Shown here: positions 2,144 to 14,736 of the stretch, one piece after another
How the letters are laid out: the number at the start of each line of letters is the position of its first letter
Numbering within the stretch: the first letter of the stretch is position 1
DNA from: Atopobium sp. oral taxon 199 str. F0494
GTDB taxonomy: Bacteria > Actinomycetota > Coriobacteriia > Coriobacteriales > Atopobiaceae
NCBI RefSeq assembly: GCF_000411555.1
Contig: NZ_KE150486.1
Location: 930,001-994,000, forward strand
DNA: 64,000 nt
Direction of reading: 5' to 3'
Notes under the pieces: model-generated
What the model saw: only the letters and a program-made list of their open reading frames with translations
What the model was told of the DNA's origin: nothing
Databases searched by the model: none
Position numbers and translations under genes: made by a program

Positions 2144-2256
2144 AGGGTCTCCTATATTCGTGTTCGTATGAATACGTTGTATCTTCATGGCATTTTACTA
2201 GAAAACTCCGACATTCTACCAGCATGATTCGAGAAAATAGCAATCCAAAACTCATC

Positions 2257-2275
2257 CTTGGGAACAGCGTAAGTT
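2257..2275 (+). repeat. hsdS 5' cassette repeat (inverted copy)
   Basis: CTTGGGAACAGCGTAAGTT, coding for WEQRK. The identical 19 bases occur on the minus strand at 4250-4268 and 8692-8710, and with two changes at 8070-8089. It marks the start of each target-recognition cassette. Confidence 0.9.
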
Positions 2276-2702
2276 CTCTGATCTGACCGACAGGGTTTCC
2301 ATTCAGCCAAGCGATTCCAATTTGCCTCAAGTCGAATACGAGGACATCAATTCCGGCGAGGGTACGCTGAATAAAGATTTGCGCGACAAAAAAGGCGGCA
2401 AAACGGGAATTGAATTTTACGCCGGAGATGTTCTGTACGGGAAGCTTCGCCCTTATTTGATGAATTGGCTATACCCACAGTTCAATGGTGTAGCTGTAGG
2501 TGATTTTTGGGTTCTTAGGGCTACAGAGTGCGACGGTTCATTTTTGTATCGGCTGGTTCAAACGGACAGCTTTCAAAGGCTTGCAAATGTATCTTCGGGC
2601 TCTAAAATGCCCCGCGCAGACTGGAATCTGATTTCACAATCGCTCTTCGCCGTGCCCGCCAATCACGACGAGCAGAAAGCAATCGCGAAGAGCTTGGCCG
2701 AG

Positions 2703-2727
2703 CTTGACAACCTCATCACCCTTCATC
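2703..2727 (+). repeat. hsdS 3' cassette repeat, left arm of 25-bp inverted repeat around the recombinase
   Basis: The 25 bases starting CTTGACAACCTCATC and coding for LDNLITLH are an exact reverse complement of 3786-3810. Near-identical copies are at 7606-7630 and 8198-8222. A second, inner inverted pair of 11 bases (TTCGAGAGCCG) sits at 2779-2789 and 3775-3785. Confidence 0.9.
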
Positions 2728-2816
2728 AGTGTAATGCACAGCAATACCTTTATCTATACTGATATTGTTAAGTCTCCCTTCGAGAGCCGCCTAAATACAA
2801 GGGAGATGATCGCCAA

Positions 2817-3749
2817 ATGTTAAGTGAACTATCAAAAGACGATGCCTTCAAAACGTATTACAAAGAATGGATCGCCGTTTACAAGGAAGGTGCTGTTAGA
2901 CAGGTAACTATGAACAAGTACCTTCTCGCTCTAACATGGGTTGAGAGGCTCGCTCCAGATGTTACGTTAGGAAACATAGATCGAATTGCCTATCAGCATC
3001 TTTTGAATCAGTATGCAAAAAGCCATGAGCGCCAAACCACCATGGATTTTCATCATCTACTTAAGGGCGCGATACTTGATGCCGTTGACGAAGGGCTTAT
3101 TTCAAGGGATCCCACAAGGAAAGCCATAGTCAAGGGAAAAGCTCCGAGGCCAAAAAAGAGCCGCTATCTCAACCAATTTGAATTGCACAAGCTGCTAACA
3201 AGTCTCGATTTAGGTAAAGATATCGGGTGGAATTGGCTCATCCTCTTGATTGCGAAAACCGGACTCAGATTCTCAGAAGCAATAGCTATCACTCCGGCCG
3301 ATTTCGACTTCGGGCGCCAAACGCTTTCTGTAAATAAAACGTGGGACTACAAAAACGGTGGCGGGTTCGTTCCTACAAAAAACAAATCATCGACCCGTAA
3401 AGTCCAAATAGACTGGCAACTCATCGTGCAGTTTTCTGTGCTTGTTAAGGAACTTCCTGAAGATAAGCCACTCTTTGTCAAAGAAGGTCAACGTGTATAC
3501 AACTCAACAGCAAATGACATACTCGCTAGATTGTGTAAGCAGGCTGGTGTTCCGGTTATATCCATACACGGCCTTCGGCACACACACGCCTCGTTGCTTC
3601 TATTTGCAGGAGTATCGATTGCAAGCGTTGCAAAACGTCTGGGACATGCAAGCATGAATACGACGGAGAAAACATATTTGCATATCATTCAGGAACTAGA
3701 GAACAAAGATGTTGATCTAGTAATGCGCTCGCTTACAAGCCTCGTTTAG
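2817..3749 (+). CDS. Tyrosine site-specific recombinase of the hsdS locus
   Basis: A 310-residue integrase-family protein. It has an N-terminal SAM-like DNA-binding core (about residues 8-95) and a catalytic domain with Arg in AKTGLRFSEA, a Lys in the beta-hairpin region NKSSTRKV, the HGLRHTH box (His and second Arg), His in RLGHAS, and the nucleophile Tyr in EKTYLHI. All catalytic residues are present, so it should be active. The start has GGGAG about ten bases upstream. It lies between two half-hsdS cassettes in opposite orientation and inside a 25-bp inverted repeat, the position held by recombinases of phase-variable type I systems. Its likely substrates are the hsdS repeats rather than a phage attachment site; that is inference. 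Confidence 0.9.
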   Translation: MLSELSKDDAFKTYYKEWIAVYKEGAVRQVTMNKYLLALTWVERLAPDVTLGNIDRIAYQHLLNQYAKSHERQTTMDFHHLLKGAILDAVDEGLISRDPTRKAIVKGKAPRPKKSRYLNQFELHKLLTSLDLGKDIGWNWLILLIAKTGLRFSEAIAITPADFDFGRQTLSVNKTWDYKNGGGFVPTKNKSSTRKVQIDWQLIVQFSVLVKELPEDKPLFVKEGQRVYNSTANDILARLCKQAGVPVISIHGLRHTHASLLLFAGVSIASVAKRLGHASMNTTEKTYLHIIQELENKDVDLVMRSLTSLV

Positions 3750-3785
3750 GTTAATACAGCGTAAGTCATAATGACGGCTCTCGAA

Positions 3786-3810
3786 GATGAAGGGTGATGA
3801 GGTTGTCAAG
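3786..3810 (-). repeat. hsdS 3' cassette repeat, right arm of 25-bp inverted repeat
   Basis: Exact reverse complement of 2703-2727. Together the arms bracket the recombinase gene and about 1.06 kb of DNA that could invert. Confidence 0.9.
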
Positions 3811-4249
3811 ATTCGATATAGAACGACCAATCATCCTTTGCTCATCACATATTACCGGCATTGAAACCTCAATGTCTGCAAGATCGTTTACGTTGATTGC
3901 CGGGTAACTTGTGCCGGTACACCTACCAAGTACTTCAGAAACAAAACTATCCTGCTGCATCAAACAGTAGAGAAATGTCGAATCCACGACAGGACGAATC
4001 TGAGCGTAACCCGTTGAGAAAACATAGTCGCTATCAGGCAATTTATATAGATAATTATTCTTTTGATACGGGCGGACTGTCTGGTAGAAGATGTCACCGT
4101 ATTTTGCTAGTCGTTGTGCACGAGAAGGAGCTGTTGAACGGTTTTCTCTCCGGTGTCCAATCATCACGGTACCAACAACTGATTCAAGATCAACATACTC
4201 AAATGTATTTGGGATCTGCTCTTTCGGATTGAATTCACCAAGTTCTCCC

Positions 4250-4268
4250 AACTTACGCTGTTCCCAAG
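4250..4268 (-). repeat. hsdS 5' cassette repeat
   Basis: Identical, on the minus strand, to the 19-base repeat at 2257-2275 and 8692-8710; encodes the WEQRK start of the silent cassette. Confidence 0.88.
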
Positions 4269-4323
4269 TCATATCCTTAAAAGCAATGTAATCCCACTAT
4301 CTTTGTCAGCTCCTGGCCTTTGC

Positions 4324-7300
4324 TTATATTTCTCCCCTCAACACTTCGTCAACATCGAACGCACCTATAAGCACGTATCTACGCAGCAGAACATTAGCCA
4401 GACGCATTGTATCTTTGCTCTTAATCTCTGTACCCAACGCTTTAGACAACTCTTCCTTAGCAGAAACGCGATTAACTAGCTTCAGTATGGCATCATAGCG
4501 CCCATAAGCATCAAGCTCGACTTCGGTAGGATGCGATTGGCGTAACTTACGAACATCAGTGGGGTCAATCCCTAAGATACTCGCTACTTTAAGCAGTGTT
4601 TTTTCCTCCTTGGCGTTCTTAGCCTCGTTCAGGTAATCCCTAAAATGCCATCCTTCCCTTACTTTGAACTCGCCGGTTTGTATGTCTTGGATAAGGCGGT
4701 CGGCAAGCACCTGATCATCTTCCTTGAGGTAGGGAAACTGGGAATGGAGATCGTCCAAAGCTTTTTCCTGCGCCTCTGTCGAAGCATTTCCCCTTACCGC
4801 ATCGATATAATCGTGGAACTTCTTATCGATGTAGTCGGCGTCTATCTTCTCGGTAGAAAGCGTCGTCACGTGTACGTCTATATCGTAAGGCACATAGCCA
4901 CCCTCGTTTTTGCAGTTATGGTCAATCTCTATGTAGCGGTTAAGCAACTTGTTCAGCGTATCGCTTGTCAAATCACATGTCTCAGACATAATCTCCCCTG
5001 TTTCCCTATCAAGTTCAGTTACCTCTACCACACCCGTCTCAGGGTCAAGCGCAGTCATCTCTGAATCTTCAAATTTAAATCCCTGAGCTCTAGCTGCTAT
5101 AAGGTTGCGGATAAGTTTATTCATAGCCCTAACGAATTTCGCCCGAATAACCTTGTCTTCGGGAAGTCTTGCAAAATCGCCATGCCCACAACTCTCAAAC
5201 AGTGCCTTAATCTCCTCGTACGCAGCATTAACTTTAGCAATACGAACAGCAAGAGGAACTACTATTACGTCAACCTTCTCACCACCGGAATACTTCCTGA
5301 TAGCAAACTCGATGTTACGTTTCATGGAATACGGCTTGCGGAAATAGCGAATGATACCAAAGGGTTTATCGTCATCGAGCAAACGGTTCGTACGACTAAA
5401 TGCTTGGATGATAGCTTCATGCTTCAGGTATTTATCCAGATAGAGCGTACGTACCCAAGCAGAGTCATATCCCGTGAGAAGTTGGTTAACAACAATAACC
5501 AAATCAAGACATTCCTCACGCTTGAACTCAATATTCTTATAACTTCCCTTGTGAGCAAGACGGTTCATCACATCGACTTTGAAGTCAGCGTAGGTCCCGA
5601 CATTGTACTGTTTGCTGTAGATCTTGTTGTAGGAGTTCAGGATATCGTTCAAACCATCAATCTTGCTAAGGCCATTCTCCTCATAGTCCTCACCTGGGTC
5701 GAAGATTGCCGTAACCTTGAGGGTTGGAATCAACTCACGCACTAAGTGGAAGTAAGCTACAGCCTCGGAGATAGATGAAGTGGCGAGAATGGCATGAAAC
5801 TTAGAATCGCACGAAGTCTCGAGCCATGATTTCTTTATGTCTCCGACAACTCCGCGTCGGTACTCGTCGGTATCGAACTGCACTGGATGCACGTAGTCTT
5901 CGATACCATCCTCCTCAGGGTTACCTGTTTCCTCATCAAGGGGATAGCACATGGCAACATCGTGCATATACCGTTCATAAATCTTCCTCTTGCGCTTATC
6001 AATGAAGACTTCTGAGGTGTTTGTGGCTTTTGCCTTCTCAATAGCTACAGCCTCCCTAAGCGCCTCTTCGTCAAATGAGCCAAGCTGGCGTAGGTCGAAC
6101 TCGAGAACGTTGCCATCGTGGATCCCGTTTGCAATAGTATATTGAGCAATACAGTCTCCAAATACATCCTTAGTTGTTAGCTCACACTTTGCATTAAAAG
6201 AACTAATGGGAGTTCCCGTGAACCCAAAGAAAATAGCGCAAGGCAAAGCCGCTTTCACCTGCGACATCATCTCGCCGAACTGCGAGCGATGACACTCATC
6301 AACAATAACTACTATGCGCTGCTTGGCCAGCTTCTCACGCTCGTAGTCGCTAGCACTCTTGGCAACGTTTGCGAGCTTATTGATTGTAGTGATAAAGAGC
6401 CTCTTGTTGTTCTTAACGTCGATAAGCTGAGCTTTGAGAGATTCCGAATTCGACGCCTCATTGATATCAACGATTCCACCGCTAAAACGCTCATACTCAA
6501 ATCTGGTCTGCTCGTTTAAATCAAGTCGATCAACTACCAAAAGCGTACGGTCTGCAAGTCCCATGTTGACAAGATGCGTGCAGACCTTATAGCTCGTAAG
6601 GGTCTTCCCCGAGCCTGTGGTATGCCAGATATATCCTCCGAGCTGTTTCTCCGTATTCCAGCCAGCGCGTTCCCTCTCTGAAACACGTGCCTCAATTCTG
6701 TCTACAGCGTACATCTGGTAAGGACGCATCACAAGAAGATTGTGATTGGTGTGCTCGGCAATAGTGTAGAATGAGACCATTTTGTGCGCCATGGGTATGG
6801 AGAGTAGACGTGAGCCAACCCTCTCCCAATCGTTAATAGCAACGTTATGCTCATCAGCAAAGTTGAACATGAATCTAGTGTTCAATCCCTCGTGATCATG
6901 GACATAACGCTCACCTGGATTGGCAAAGTACTTTGTCTCCTCAGGTGTCATTGCAACAAAGAGCTGAACTGTCGAGAAGAAGCCTGTAAAAACCCCTTTA
7001 TAGAGATAATTTCTAATTTGGTTGTAGGCTTGGGACAAAGGCGTATTCGAACGCTTCAGCTCGATATGAATGACAGGCAGACCATTGATCAGTAACGTAA
7101 GGTCACCTCGCTGGGAGGGATAGATGTCGCTGGCAGTTTTGAACCTTGGCTGGCGAGCAATCTGATAGCGGTTCTTGCCGCCACCGACAGCACGCTTATT
7201 GAAGATCTGAATGGTTATCTTCTGATCTAAGTGTTCTTGGTCGTCAGGATTATCACGGATAAGCGACAAGCTTTCACCTAAAAGCAGATTATTCGCTTTG

Positions 7301-7533
7301 AAAGGCGAATCACATTCCCTAATTTTACTCAAGAGCTGTTCGACCTCAGTATCAGTTAGAGGAAACCCATTGAGCCGATCACGTGTATTGTTTGTCTCAT
7401 TGAGGAAGTTCGTCCAATTTTTAAGCAAATCAGTCTCACTGGGGTTGAATAGGATACCATCAACCCATCCCCTCTTTTCGACGAGCAGGTTACACAATGC
7501 CTCTTCAAAGTCTTTTTCGAGATTAAAAGCCAT
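4324..7533 (-). CDS. hsdR: Type I restriction endonuclease subunit R
   Basis: About 1069 residues. The N-terminal nuclease domain shows the PD-(D/E)xK signature GDLTLLINGLPVIHIELK (near residue 165). The superfamily 2 translocase follows with Walker A HTTGSGKT, DECH box in VIVDECHRSQ, FTGTP (motif III) and QAFSRTNR (motif VI), and then the helical C-terminal domain that docks on HsdM. The start at 7533 (MAFNLEKDFE) has AAGGA seven bases upstream; a longer frame to 7563 overlaps the hsdS stop. It restricts unmethylated DNA after ATP-driven translocation. It follows the hsdS stop at 7544 by ten bases, so hsdM, hsdS and hsdR form one transcript. All motifs are intact. Confidence 0.96.
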   Translation of the reverse strand: MAFNLEKDFEEALCNLLVEKRGWVDGILFNPSETDLLKNWTNFLNETNNTRDRLNGFPLTDTEVEQLLSKIRECDSPFKANNLLLGESLSLIRDNPDDQEHLDQKITIQIFNKRAVGGGKNRYQIARQPRFKTASDIYPSQRGDLTLLINGLPVIHIELKRSNTPLSQAYNQIRNYLYKGVFTGFFSTVQLFVAMTPEETKYFANPGERYVHDHEGLNTRFMFNFADEHNVAINDWERVGSRLLSIPMAHKMVSFYTIAEHTNHNLLVMRPYQMYAVDRIEARVSERERAGWNTEKQLGGYIWHTTGSGKTLTSYKVCTHLVNMGLADRTLLVVDRLDLNEQTRFEYERFSGGIVDINEASNSESLKAQLIDVKNNKRLFITTINKLANVAKSASDYEREKLAKQRIVVIVDECHRSQFGEMMSQVKAALPCAIFFGFTGTPISSFNAKCELTTKDVFGDCIAQYTIANGIHDGNVLEFDLRQLGSFDEEALREAVAIEKAKATNTSEVFIDKRKRKIYERYMHDVAMCYPLDEETGNPEEDGIEDYVHPVQFDTDEYRRGVVGDIKKSWLETSCDSKFHAILATSSISEAVAYFHLVRELIPTLKVTAIFDPGEDYEENGLSKIDGLNDILNSYNKIYSKQYNVGTYADFKVDVMNRLAHKGSYKNIEFKREECLDLVIVVNQLLTGYDSAWVRTLYLDKYLKHEAIIQAFSRTNRLLDDDKPFGIIRYFRKPYSMKRNIEFAIRKYSGGEKVDVIVVPLAVRIAKVNAAYEEIKALFESCGHGDFARLPEDKVIRAKFVRAMNKLIRNLIAARAQGFKFEDSEMTALDPETGVVEVTELDRETGEIMSETCDLTSDTLNKLLNRYIEIDHNCKNEGGYVPYDIDVHVTTLSTEKIDADYIDKKFHDYIDAVRGNASTEAQEKALDDLHSQFPYLKEDDQVLADRLIQDIQTGEFKVREGWHFRDYLNEAKNAKEEKTLLKVASILGIDPTDVRKLRQSHPTEVELDAYGRYDAILKLVNRVSAKEELSKALGTEIKSKDTMRLANVLLRRYVLIGAFDVDEVLRGEI

Positions 7534-7605
7534 AGTATCGTCCTTACGTAAACATTTTTTCAAGAAGTGATTTCTTGATGCTCTTCAGCAGTGCCAACTT
7601 ACGCT

Positions 7606-7630
7606 GATGAAGGGTGATGAGGTGATCGAG
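7606..7630 (-). repeat. hsdS 3' cassette repeat
   Basis: Copy of the 25-base DNLITLH repeat with a few changes (DHLITLH here), preceded by CTTACGCT on the plus strand as in the copy at 8198-8222. Confidence 0.8.
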
Positions 7631-8069
7631 GTGAGCAAAATACTCTGCTATTTTGTCTTGCTCTTGCTTATCTTTTGAAACGAATATTTCTATCTGGCTC
7701 AAAGCAGGGTATTTCAAATTCCAGTTATCAGATGTTATCCCTTGTGAATTAACTTGAAAGGTGTGTATCGTTTCCGGTAACTTAAATTGATAAGCCAAGC
7801 ACTTTGAATTGATACCTGAATTTGGCGAAAGTACCGTATATGCAGGGCTTACAATGCCTTCATATGGTGAATAACCGCTTGCACCTTGCCACATTCTCAT
7901 TGAGTTATAAGCAATATCCCCAACACAAACTTTCTTATATTTTGACTTATCTTCATTTGAATTATCGTGTCTGCCAAGCTCGGAAAATTTCTTTACTCCA
8001 TCGTTGATAGTAACCGAAATTAATTCGCCGTCAGGCATACTTTCGACACGCTCAGTAAAACAATCTCCA

Positions 8070-8089
8070 ACCTTACGCTGTTCCCAAAG
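8070..8089 (-). repeat. hsdS 5' cassette repeat carrying the frameshift
   Basis: Copy of the WEQRK repeat at the junction of the two HsdS halves. It differs from the other three by a C/A change near one end and by one additional A in 8086-8088. Confidence 0.85.
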
Positions 8090-8756
8090 GGTCAGTAAAA
8101 CCGGCGAATCGAACTTCTGGTTCGTTCTCTCCCTCTCGGGGAAACATCTTTTCAAGTAGAGACTTTTTCAAAGCAGAAAGCTTTTCATACTTACGCTGAT
8201 GAAGGGTGATGAGGTTGTCGAGGTGAGAGAAGAATGAGCCGAGTTGAGCCTGTTCGTTTGTTTTTGGATAAGGAACCTCAAGTTCCAAAACCTTATTCTT
8301 CGAGATATTGAATCGCGATATTCCCTGGGCAAGCAAAGTCAAATCACTTCGTACGCCTGGGGACCTGAGCATATAGGCGAGGTATCGCGAATCAAAACTA
8401 CCGTCTTGTCGGTAACCAAAGCAAAAGCTATTCAGGTAAACATTTGGCTGGTCAGAAAGCCAAATGGAAGACATGCCCACTTCCTCTGGCGTCTCGGAAG
8501 ATACAGTAAACAACGCATCGCCATATCTAACTTCGTTTTGCTTAGGGTCTTCCTCGATGAATTCAAGCTGATTGCTATCGGTAATCGGGTTATCAAATAC
8601 GTTTGTATACGGAATGAATTTGGCGGCACCATGGCCAAAGTCTTCCTTCGTCTTGCCAGATAACCCGCCATAAGCAAATCCACAGTCACCCAACTTACGC
8701 TGTTCCCAAGGGTCAGTAAAACCTTTGAAACGAATCTGTGGCACGTTCGTGCTCAT
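8073..8756 (-). CDS. hsdS: Type I restriction-modification specificity subunit, first half (truncated by frameshift)
   Basis: Starts [20 protein letters not shown] at 8756, one base after the hsdM stop (TAG C ATG), so it is translationally coupled to hsdM. It has one target-recognition domain ([41 protein letters not shown]) and the central helix [32 protein letters not shown], then repeats the domain-opening text FAGFTDP and ends LGTA because of a one-base insertion. The result is a 227-residue half-HsdS instead of about 403. HsdS sets the DNA site methylated by HsdM and cut by HsdR. Half-length S proteins can dimerise in some systems and recognise a palindromic site, so activity is possible. 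A sequencing error is the other explanation. Confidence 0.88.
8198..8222 (-). repeat. hsdS 3' cassette repeat
   Basis: Matches the 25-base inverted repeat around the recombinase in 24 of 25 positions (GTCGAG instead of GTCAAG). Confidence 0.85.
8692..8710 (-). repeat. hsdS 5' cassette repeat in the expressed gene
   Basis: Identical to 2257-2275 (opposite strand) and 4250-4268 (same strand). It lies 15 codons into the expressed hsdS, so recombination here would swap the whole first recognition domain while keeping the native start. Confidence 0.9.
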
Positions 8757-12654: not shown

Positions 12655-14736
12655 CTAATCAAGTTCAGCACCTACCGGCATCTCAAAGGCGAGCTCGCTG
12701 GCAGAGATATCGCAGACCTCGAAGACACGCTTGAGCAAATCTATCTTGGCCGACGTGCTTGAGTTGGTCTTCACATACACACCGCTAGTAATCTGTGAGA
12801 ATCCTTGGGCTTCGTCGCCGCAAAAAGCAGTACCTGGATAGGTGTTGCTGTTCACAAGCGAATGAATCTTTGCGGGCTCTAGCTCACAAAGCAGCTTCAA
12901 GACCTTTACTTCCATCTCATTCCACTGCGATGTTGCATAACGGTCTCCAATGAAGCTGAAGGCAGCAATCCTCCTACCCGTGAACTCGGTATCGGAACCC
13001 AACTCTGCTAGCTCAGGAAGCATCTTTTTTGGCTCATAGTTCGTCGTAGGAAACGGCCAAGTTGCGAGGAACTGCTCTTCAAGCATTTTCCCGCGGTCTT
13101 TCATCTGGCTTTCACCCCAAGTAGTTTGTTGGGCTATCCATTGGTTCATGCGGAAGCCGCTATCTTTGAAGCCATCCTTCATATCGCGTTTTGTCTTGAA
13201 CGGACGGTTGCTGTAGTCGGAGTTGTAGGCCGTGAGCGTAAGGTTTGCCATCTTATGACACCATTCCTCATGAATGCGCTCCCAGTCGTCTCCAAGGCTT
13301 TTCTTCCAGTCGGCATTGAGGGTCTGCGGCATCACGTGCTCGACTGAGAAGTCACCTCTTTCGAGGCCGGCGACAACCTCGATACGCTCTTCGCTGGTGC
13401 CGTTCTCAAGCCGGTCGTACAGATAGTACTTGCGGTTCTGAATACGGTAGAAATCGCGGGTATCCAATGAGTAGAGAAAATCGTTGTCGTCTGGGAATCG
13501 TCCTGTTCCTCCCTTGTGTGTTAAGAGGTACTTCACGACTTCCGGATAAGATGCGCCATCTTTAACGCCCTTGAGAGCATCACCATGAAGCGTCTCGAAT
13601 ATCTTGTTCAGGGCGTTTGCAGGCACGCTGCATACCCACCTGCGGAAAAGGTACGAGTCGATGCACCAGAGAACCGTTGCCACTGCCGCATCATCTATGT
13701 TCCCGGATGCTCTGTAGTCGAGCAAATTGAGCAGATAGGGATGCGTGACGCTCGCATCGAATAGGTGAATCGCCCTAAGCGCTGAATCAATCTCTTTAAC
13801 ACCCGTATCGGGATGATTACAGAGACGATAGTACTTCGAGTAACGCAAGAGCTCTTCGAGCAAACCCTTGGCGTCGATACCCAGATCCCCAGCTTCAGGG
13901 TCATGGAAACGCTTTGCGGCATATGAGCGGAAGGACGGGTAAACCTTCTTAATCGCCGGCGTCTTCGCTTCTCGTGCAGCGAGGTAGAAGCGAATGTAGT
14001 CACTTACTTTGTAGTCGGTATTTCGCTCGACAGCGTTCCAGTAGTTCTCGTAATAGGCCTCCTGGCGCTCTTGGTCGAGGTTCATGAGCACGAAGTTGCG
14101 AATTTTGTCTGCCTCGGAGAGATCGAGGCCGGTTGAGTTCAGGCTTTCGAAGATGAGTTGCGCGTCATCACCCGGGTCAAGCGTGATATCAATAACGCAC
14201 AGAGATTTGATGGCCTCGTAAAGCTCATCGATACTAATATCCATATACGTGATGCGCTCTAGGAAGTAGAAGAAGTTCTGGGTGACATTCGAACTCTGAA
14301 CATAAGCGTCCTCATTCTGGTCAAGGACGGCCGAAAATGCCTCACTATCGCTTTTGACCAGCTTGAGCCGGAGTTTCTGCTCCTTCTTGTGCTTTCTGTC
14401 TATGAGGTAGTAATCATCGATATCTTCGGCGAGGTCTTCTTCCTCTGAGGTCACAACGCCCGTGGTTAACTGATCTCTAATAGCAGCCAGGAGCAGAAAT
14501 ACAGTGGTTATTCGCTGCTGTCCATCAATAACAATACGCTCCCCGCGCGGCGTTTGCGAGACAATGCTTCCGAAGAAGTGCTCTTTGCGCCCCGTCTTTG
14601 ACACCTCGACAAGATCGTCGAAAAGCCTCTTGCACTGCTCGGGTTTCCAGTCGTAATTGCGCTGATATACAGGGATGACAAATCGTGTGAGCTTACCCTC
14701 AATGAGGTCCGTAAGATACTGCTTGTGTCCGTCCAT
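12655..14736 (-). CDS. DUF262/DUF1524 protein, GmrSD-like putative restriction factor
   Basis: 693 residues. The N-terminal DUF262 (ParB/sulfiredoxin-like) domain shows FVIPVYQRNYDWKPEQCKRL and IVIDGQQRITTVFLLLAAIR, the nucleotide-binding DGQQR box of GmrS-type proteins. The second part holds DUF1524, a His-Me-finger nuclease domain with FSVEHVMPQTLNADWK and NLTLTAYNSDYSNRPFKTK. A further C-terminal domain of about 110 residues is not one I recognise. GmrSD-type single-chain proteins restrict modified phage DNA; the position beside a type I system supports a defence role, but the target cannot be read from sequence. ATG 14736 has AAGGA about nine bases upstream. It is monocistronic. Confidence 0.85.
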   Translation of the reverse strand: MDGHKQYLTDLIEGKLTRFVIPVYQRNYDWKPEQCKRLFDDLVEVSKTGRKEHFFGSIVSQTPRGERIVIDGQQRITTVFLLLAAIRDQLTTGVVTSEEEDLAEDIDDYYLIDRKHKKEQKLRLKLVKSDSEAFSAVLDQNEDAYVQSSNVTQNFFYFLERITYMDISIDELYEAIKSLCVIDITLDPGDDAQLIFESLNSTGLDLSEADKIRNFVLMNLDQERQEAYYENYWNAVERNTDYKVSDYIRFYLAAREAKTPAIKKVYPSFRSYAAKRFHDPEAGDLGIDAKGLLEELLRYSKYYRLCNHPDTGVKEIDSALRAIHLFDASVTHPYLLNLLDYRASGNIDDAAVATVLWCIDSYLFRRWVCSVPANALNKIFETLHGDALKGVKDGASYPEVVKYLLTHKGGTGRFPDDNDFLYSLDTRDFYRIQNRKYYLYDRLENGTSEERIEVVAGLERGDFSVEHVMPQTLNADWKKSLGDDWERIHEEWCHKMANLTLTAYNSDYSNRPFKTKRDMKDGFKDSGFRMNQWIAQQTTWGESQMKDRGKMLEEQFLATWPFPTTNYEPKKMLPELAELGSDTEFTGRRIAAFSFIGDRYATSQWNEMEVKVLKLLCELEPAKIHSLVNSNTYPGTAFCGDEAQGFSQITSGVYVKTNSSTSAKIDLLKRVFEVCDISASELAFEMPVGAELD

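Follow-up and report, generated by a model that had tools for sequence, protein, structure and literature searches.

Introduction

Type I restriction-modification (RM) loci that undergo inversion have been described in pneumococcus (PMC4948785, PMC7096588) and in a REBASE survey (PMC7394358). In the hsd locus of Listeria monocytogenes ST8 (LMR479A_0528-0532), inversions at two sequences, agcttgggaacagcgt and ctatcgctcttcatcagcgtaagttagat, give four states between strains; an integrase gene lies between the hsdS genes, and one strain has frameshifts at the central hsdS site (PMC4783014). Here we describe an hsd locus in a 64,000-nucleotide stretch of Atopobium sp. oral taxon 199 str. F0494, referred to below as the window, which covers positions 930,001-994,000 of contig 1 in a 1.67-Mb genome of two contigs. 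The host is a Lancefieldella-like member of the Coriobacteriia, and Lancefieldella rimae ATCC 49626 is among its same-genus relatives. The locus is very probably a phase-variable (shuffling) type I RM locus driven by its own recombinase. In this reading, the shuffling of restriction specificity by a recombinase extends to Coriobacteriia of the mouth and gut (Lancefieldella, Olsenella-like genera).

Architecture of the locus

Membership in the phase-variable type I RM loci rests on anatomy. The genes hsdM, hsdS and hsdR stand together with extra, differing silent target recognition domains (TRDs), inverted repeats are common to the expressed and the silent TRDs, and a recombinase is encoded in the locus (Table 1). 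We call the expressed TRDs A and B and the silent half-cassettes C and D. Reading of hsdM, hsdS, hsdR and half-cassette C is from the minus strand, and the recombinase and D lie on the opposite strand. An earlier first-pass annotation of this DNA had placed one silent cassette on the same strand beyond hsdR (C) and another, inverted, beyond the recombinase (D), in agreement with the coordinates and with the Pfam and PADLOC matches. When the host's own genome was searched with the Pfam specificity-domain model, only two halves of the window locus were matched. The EcoR124_C domain in the deduced HsdR points to a type IC-like enzyme. In the recombinase, the predicted catalytic residues R151, H251, R254, H277, and Y287 form the R..H-x-x-R..H..Y pattern of the tyrosine recombinase superfamily.

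Every TRD cassette opens with TTGGGAACAGCGTAAG (2258-2273 on the plus strand; 4252-4267, 8072-8087, and 8694-8709 on the minus strand). No further copies occur in the window (0.03 expected, with up to two mismatches allowed), and a search of the whole genome found none outside the locus's four. Closing repeats of the type CTYGAYMACCTCATCACCCTTCATC lie at 2703-2727 (+), 3786-3810 (-), 7606-7630 (-), and 8198-8222 (-). Four half-cassettes with identical repeats had been reported in the earlier annotation; the four cassettes and both repeat types are present, but the identity is incomplete. The 19-base opening repeat is full in A, C, and D, with 16 bases in common in B, and the 25-base closing repeat is identical between C and D only, A being off by one base and B by three. 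The closing repeats of A and B run on into AGCGTAAG, so that both site types share CAGCGTAAG.

Two further elements lie around the recombinase gene. A perfect 12-base inverted repeat, CTTCGAGAGCCG, stands on either side of it at 2778-2789 (+) and 3775-3786 (-) and is a candidate recombinase binding or regulatory site; CGAGAGYCGCC-like elements flank the recombinase in other Coriobacteriia. The shared core also occurs once by itself, inverted, directly past the recombinase stop codon (ACAGCGTAAGT, 3756-3766 (+)); this element recurs in most coriobacterial relatives.

Table 1. Features of the hsd locus, in coordinates of the window (aa, amino acids)
Feature	Position	Strand	Evidence or remark
hsdM, type I methyltransferase subunit, 919 aa	8758..11517	-	Pfam N6_Mtase E=1.6e-95, HsdM_N; TIGR00497 hsdM above cut-off; PADLOC MTase_I 8e-292
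Expressed hsdS, first half: TRD A and central conserved region, 227 aa	8073..8756	-	Open reading frame; Pfam Methylase_S; PADLOC Specificity_I 1e-69
Expressed hsdS, second half: TRD B and tail, out of frame with first half	7544..8086	-	Methylase_S 1.7e-6
hsdR, type I restriction subunit, EcoR124-type C-terminal domain	4324..7533, ATG at 7533	-	TIGR00348 above cut-off; PF12008 EcoR124_C, HSDR_N, SWI2_SNF2
Silent half-cassette C (TRD C), beyond hsdR, stop soon after 3' repeat	3766..4272	- (as hsdS)	Methylase_S 9.8e-8
Tyrosine recombinase, 310 aa	2817..3749	+	Phage_integrase E=1.5e-21; catalytic motifs
Silent half-cassette D (TRD D), inverted, no start codon	2257..2762	+	PADLOC Specificity_I 7e-36
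5' repeat of D, CTTGGGAACAGCGTAAGTT	2257..2275	+	Left breakpoint of TRD replacement in G062
3' repeat of D, CTTGACAACCTCATCACCCTTCATC	2703..2727	+	Right breakpoint of TRD replacement in G062
3' repeat of C, identical to that of D	3786..3810	-	
5' repeat of C	4250..4268	-	
3' repeat of B, CTCGATCACCTCATCACCCTTCATCAGCGTAAG	7598..7630	-	
5' repeat of B, extra T at edge	8072..8088	-	
TTT, one T more than in CCCTTGGG; throws TRD B out of frame	8086..8088	-	
3' repeat of A, CTCGACAACCTCATCACCCTTCATCAGCGTAAG	8190..8222	-	
5' repeat of A	8692..8710	-	

Conservation of the recombinase and its sites

A scan of 84,980 species genomes for relatives of the recombinase gave at least 381 confirmed ones, the best 80 of which are 68-85% identical. 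In most sufficiently long contigs, hsdM/hsdR and several half-cassettes surround them. Of 111 cassettes, 106 encode the WEQRK motif as TGGGAACAGCGTAAG, where the codon usage of the TRDs would lead one to expect 1.9%; ITLH is encoded as ATCACCCTTCAT in 108 of 120, where 0.6% would be expected. The sites go with the recombinase clade, because they adjoin relatives on viral contigs at 68-69% identity and are practically missing at 57% or below. The window fits the hsdS-associated clade, in which relatives are about 60% identical or more and both sites (CTTGGGAACAGCGTAAG / ATCACCCTTCATCAGCGTAAG) are present. Down to the codon, the two DNA sites stay nearly unchanged within one recombinase clade that spans Actinobacteria, Firmicutes, Mycoplasma, and some Gammaproteobacteria, and searching for the two sequences could be an easy way to find shuffling hsdS loci.

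The viral-contig recombinases that are 42-57% identical (L159-L188) are without these sites and may be sister clades using other ones; some adjoin an hsdM-like gene. In L. rimae (L147, 642-1637), a gene of Fic-type appearance, judged by a sequence motif, stands between the second expressed TRD and an extra HsdS half with its own start codon.

Evidence for cassette exchange

The same-species genome G062, our reference for the flank and indel comparisons, is 98.9% identical to the window up to base 2275, the end of the 5' site of D, and 98.8% identical again from 2711, inside the 3' site of D, with an unrelated TRD between. A differing TRD therefore sits exactly between the repeats of slot D, in a locus otherwise deleted: hsdM-S-R are gone, and only cassette D and a recombinase cut after 130 aa are left. 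Two genomes, Jeddahella massiliensis (L033, which is probably also G219) and G216, carry identical TRDs in expressed and silent slots. TRD A has relatives in an expressed slot of L048 and in a silent slot of L071, a silent cassette from the Clostridiales (L092) matches TRD B at 87% identity, and TRD C is 67-68% identical to cassettes in L081 and L124. Contigs of relatives end within 50 nt of a site in 19 of 90 cases, where 3.7 would be expected, and the L. rimae hsdM contig ends a few bases ahead of the 5' site of TRD1. That the recombinase shuffles hsdS, as the first-pass annotation had proposed, is thus supported by the published Listeria sites, the co-occurrence of recombinase, sites, and hsd genes, and the differing TRD in slot D of G062.

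Five points weigh against this reading. The cassette difference in G062 is ambiguous because hsdM-S-R and most of the recombinase are lost there, and it could stem from homologous recombination or horizontal transfer. The clustering of contig ends can also arise from strain mixtures in metagenome bins or from short k-mers. The 3' sites of C and D are without the CAGCGTAAG tail that A and B carry after CTTCATC. When 299 genomes of the order were searched with TRD A, TRD C, and the TRD of G062, relatives turned up in other genera, and no re-ordered sibling locus with the same four TRDs was found. Finally, the expressed hsdS is frameshifted (see below), which makes the present function and output of the system uncertain.

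Some neighbouring genes were also noted. Upstream of hsdM, a gene for a 693-aa protein (12655-14736, minus strand) matches two defence models of PADLOC, Orf5 and HEC-06, and the RM genes may therefore be part of a small defence island. Beside the breakpoint in G062 (L146, G062:C1:1280000-1292000), a 734-aa open reading frame (ORF) has a putative macrodomain and ADP-ribosylglycohydrolase, a guess from its sequence, and a short segment corresponds to the last part of the Orf5/HEC-06-like gene of the window.

Frameshift in the expressed hsdS

The first-pass annotation had placed two cassettes in the expressed hsdS. Both are there, but they do not form one open gene: a one-base frameshift, overlooked in that annotation, separates them. 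At 8083-8091 (-), CCCTTTGGG stands where CCCTTGGG is usual; the ORF from the ATG at 8756 ends at a TAA (8075-8073), and TRD B goes on in another frame. The spacing from the 3' site to the 5' site is 124 nt in the window against 123 nt as a rule in relatives. Where relatives have two expressed TRDs in tandem, 43 junctions read through in one open frame; the other out-of-frame junctions are either more than 200 nt apart or repeat finds of the window locus itself, and the frameshift was found in none of the relatives with the same compact junction. The frameshift is probably real. A generally error-prone assembly is unlikely, because G062 and the window differ over about 18 kb by few single-base indels, none of which clearly disrupts a gene; a local assembly error at the junction is possible. 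Programmed frameshifting at CCCTTTG is an unlikely explanation, since a +1 shift would be needed while an XXXYYYZ heptamer gives -1, and the relatives have no such heptamer.

The truncated half-HsdS proteins of the type IC enzymes EcoR124I, EcoDXXI, and NgoAV function as homodimers with palindromic specificity (PMC3874165). The window half-HsdS is like them in having one TRD and the central conserved region; homodimer action was shown for those proteins. By analogy, two copies of the half-HsdS with TRD A may pair and recognise a palindromic split site; alternatively, the system may be switched off.

The locus might instead be a decaying, inactive shufflon, in which the frameshift has killed HsdS and which is heading for a remnant state like that of G062. 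Such decay would agree with the absence of the frameshift from relatives with the same compact junction, with the near lack of other frame-breaking differences that speaks against sloppy assembly, and with the loss of hsdR-S-M in G062, where cassette D and a truncated recombinase are all that is retained. However, the frames of hsdM, hsdR, the recombinase, and the TRDs themselves are intact, half-HsdS can work, as in the three truncated enzymes above, and a faulty junction is replaceable by a recombination event at that site. We regard decay as rather unlikely.

Position of hsdR and proposed route of exchange

In the preferred reading of a recombinase-driven shuffling locus, the recombinase would join pairs of like sites, CTTGGGAACAGCGTAAG on the 5' side and ATCACCCTTCATC on the 3' side, the latter followed by AGCGTAAG in the expressed copies. 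These sites bracket each TRD cassette, and those in opposite orientation would give inversion. Two successive inversions, at a 5' pair and at a 3' pair, would let the expressed gene trade a TRD with a silent slot and would bring hsdR back into place, and each new TRD pair would yield a new bipartite methylation and restriction specificity. We infer an active recombinase, changes in methylation, and exchange mainly by inversion rather than by excision and re-integration.

This geometry was simulated with eight sites of two types, only inversion between like sites in opposite orientation being allowed. As a result, 288 arrangements were reachable, 48 of them with hsdM, a two-TRD hsdS, and hsdR in line; these 48 give 12 ordered TRD pairs by inversions alone. 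Two inversions sufficed for a swap with D, and three were needed for a swap with C. From the present state, six single inversions are possible: four span hsdR and move it to the opposite strand, and two affect only the silent cassettes and the recombinase.

The first-pass annotation had held that the location of hsdR between expressed and silent cassettes is unusual and demands short-tract exchange; neither view survived. Such a location is no peculiarity, as hsdM-hsdR-int is the commonest order, present in 22 of the 33 loci that carry all three genes (window included); the genes of the J. massiliensis locus are ordered like those of the window, and the annotation of Mycoplasmopsis cynos shows this layout too (hsdM-hsdS-hsdR-int-hsdS, NZ_LR214986). 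Short-tract gene conversion is not a necessity either, because pairs of inversions in the simulation swap cassettes and return hsdR. From the geometry, a two-step inversion would resolve the hsdR problem. The frequent hsdR-inside layout raises the question of how cells avoid self-cutting during a change of specificity. A speculative and rather doubtful reading is that hsdR inside the invertible segment acts as an interlock: a single inversion that opens hsdS would flip hsdR away from the hsdM promoter and turn restriction off, only a completed two-inversion swap would re-arm the system with a new specificity, and the half-HsdS states would be methylation-only intermediates.

Instead of inverting, cassettes could also leave as a circle and re-integrate at direct repeats, the mechanism of the pneumococcal tvr locus (SpnIV). 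The sites of A, B, and C are indeed direct repeats, and the tvr repeat types share a core of about 11 bp (PMC6265443), much as the 5' and 3' sites of the window share theirs. Nevertheless, direct-repeat deletions in the simulation take out hsdR or the TRD spacer, cassette D faces the other way from its fellow cassettes, as happens in inversion loci, and no toxin-antitoxin pair stands beside the window recombinase, unlike in tvr; we consider this route quite improbable. That the repeats are mere conserved HsdS coding motifs and the recombinase an unrelated neighbour is scarcely credible: WEQRK and DNLITLH are both part of the HsdS protein, but even at synonymous positions their codons hardly vary from phylum to phylum, the occurrence of the sites follows the recombinase clade, and inversion at this very DNA has been published (PMC4783014).

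Comparison with known systems

The probable shuffling locus of the window shares with SpnIII/cod/ivr of Streptococcus pneumoniae and its PsrA (PMC4948785, PMC7096588) a type I RM system, a tyrosine recombinase, and inverted repeats within hsdS genes. In SpnIII, the repeats are of 15, 85, and 298 bp, and hsdR and hsdM lie outside the inverting region. SpnIV tvr (PMC6265443) has in common with the window TRD cassettes, a tyrosine recombinase, and two repeat types with a common short core, but its repeats are all direct, and it has circular intermediates and the tvrAT regulators, whereas in the window D and its repeats are inverted and no tvrAT-like genes stand beside the recombinase. M. cynos NCTC10142 (NZ_LR214986) resembles the window in that hsdM-hsdS-hsdR is followed, on the opposite strand, by a recombinase and silent parts of hsdS, with the same 3' sites; it differs in its larger number of silent cassettes, and the stretch that was read contains nothing closely matching the 5' site. 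As in L. monocytogenes ST8 (PMC4783014), the window has the same two recombination sequences (agcttgggaacagcgt; ...cttcatcagcgtaag...), an integrase gene, and silent HsdS parts, although in the window each silent part is one half-cassette and hsdR sits inside. The Listeria sequences agcttgggaacagcgt and ctatcgctcttcatcagcgtaagttagat correspond to the 5' and 3' sites of the window, and the annotated hsd locus of Listeria innocua contains both, together with an integrase 59.5% identical. Self-shuffling restriction systems are already known in many bacteria, and the window locus is an ordinary, slightly damaged example in a new host.

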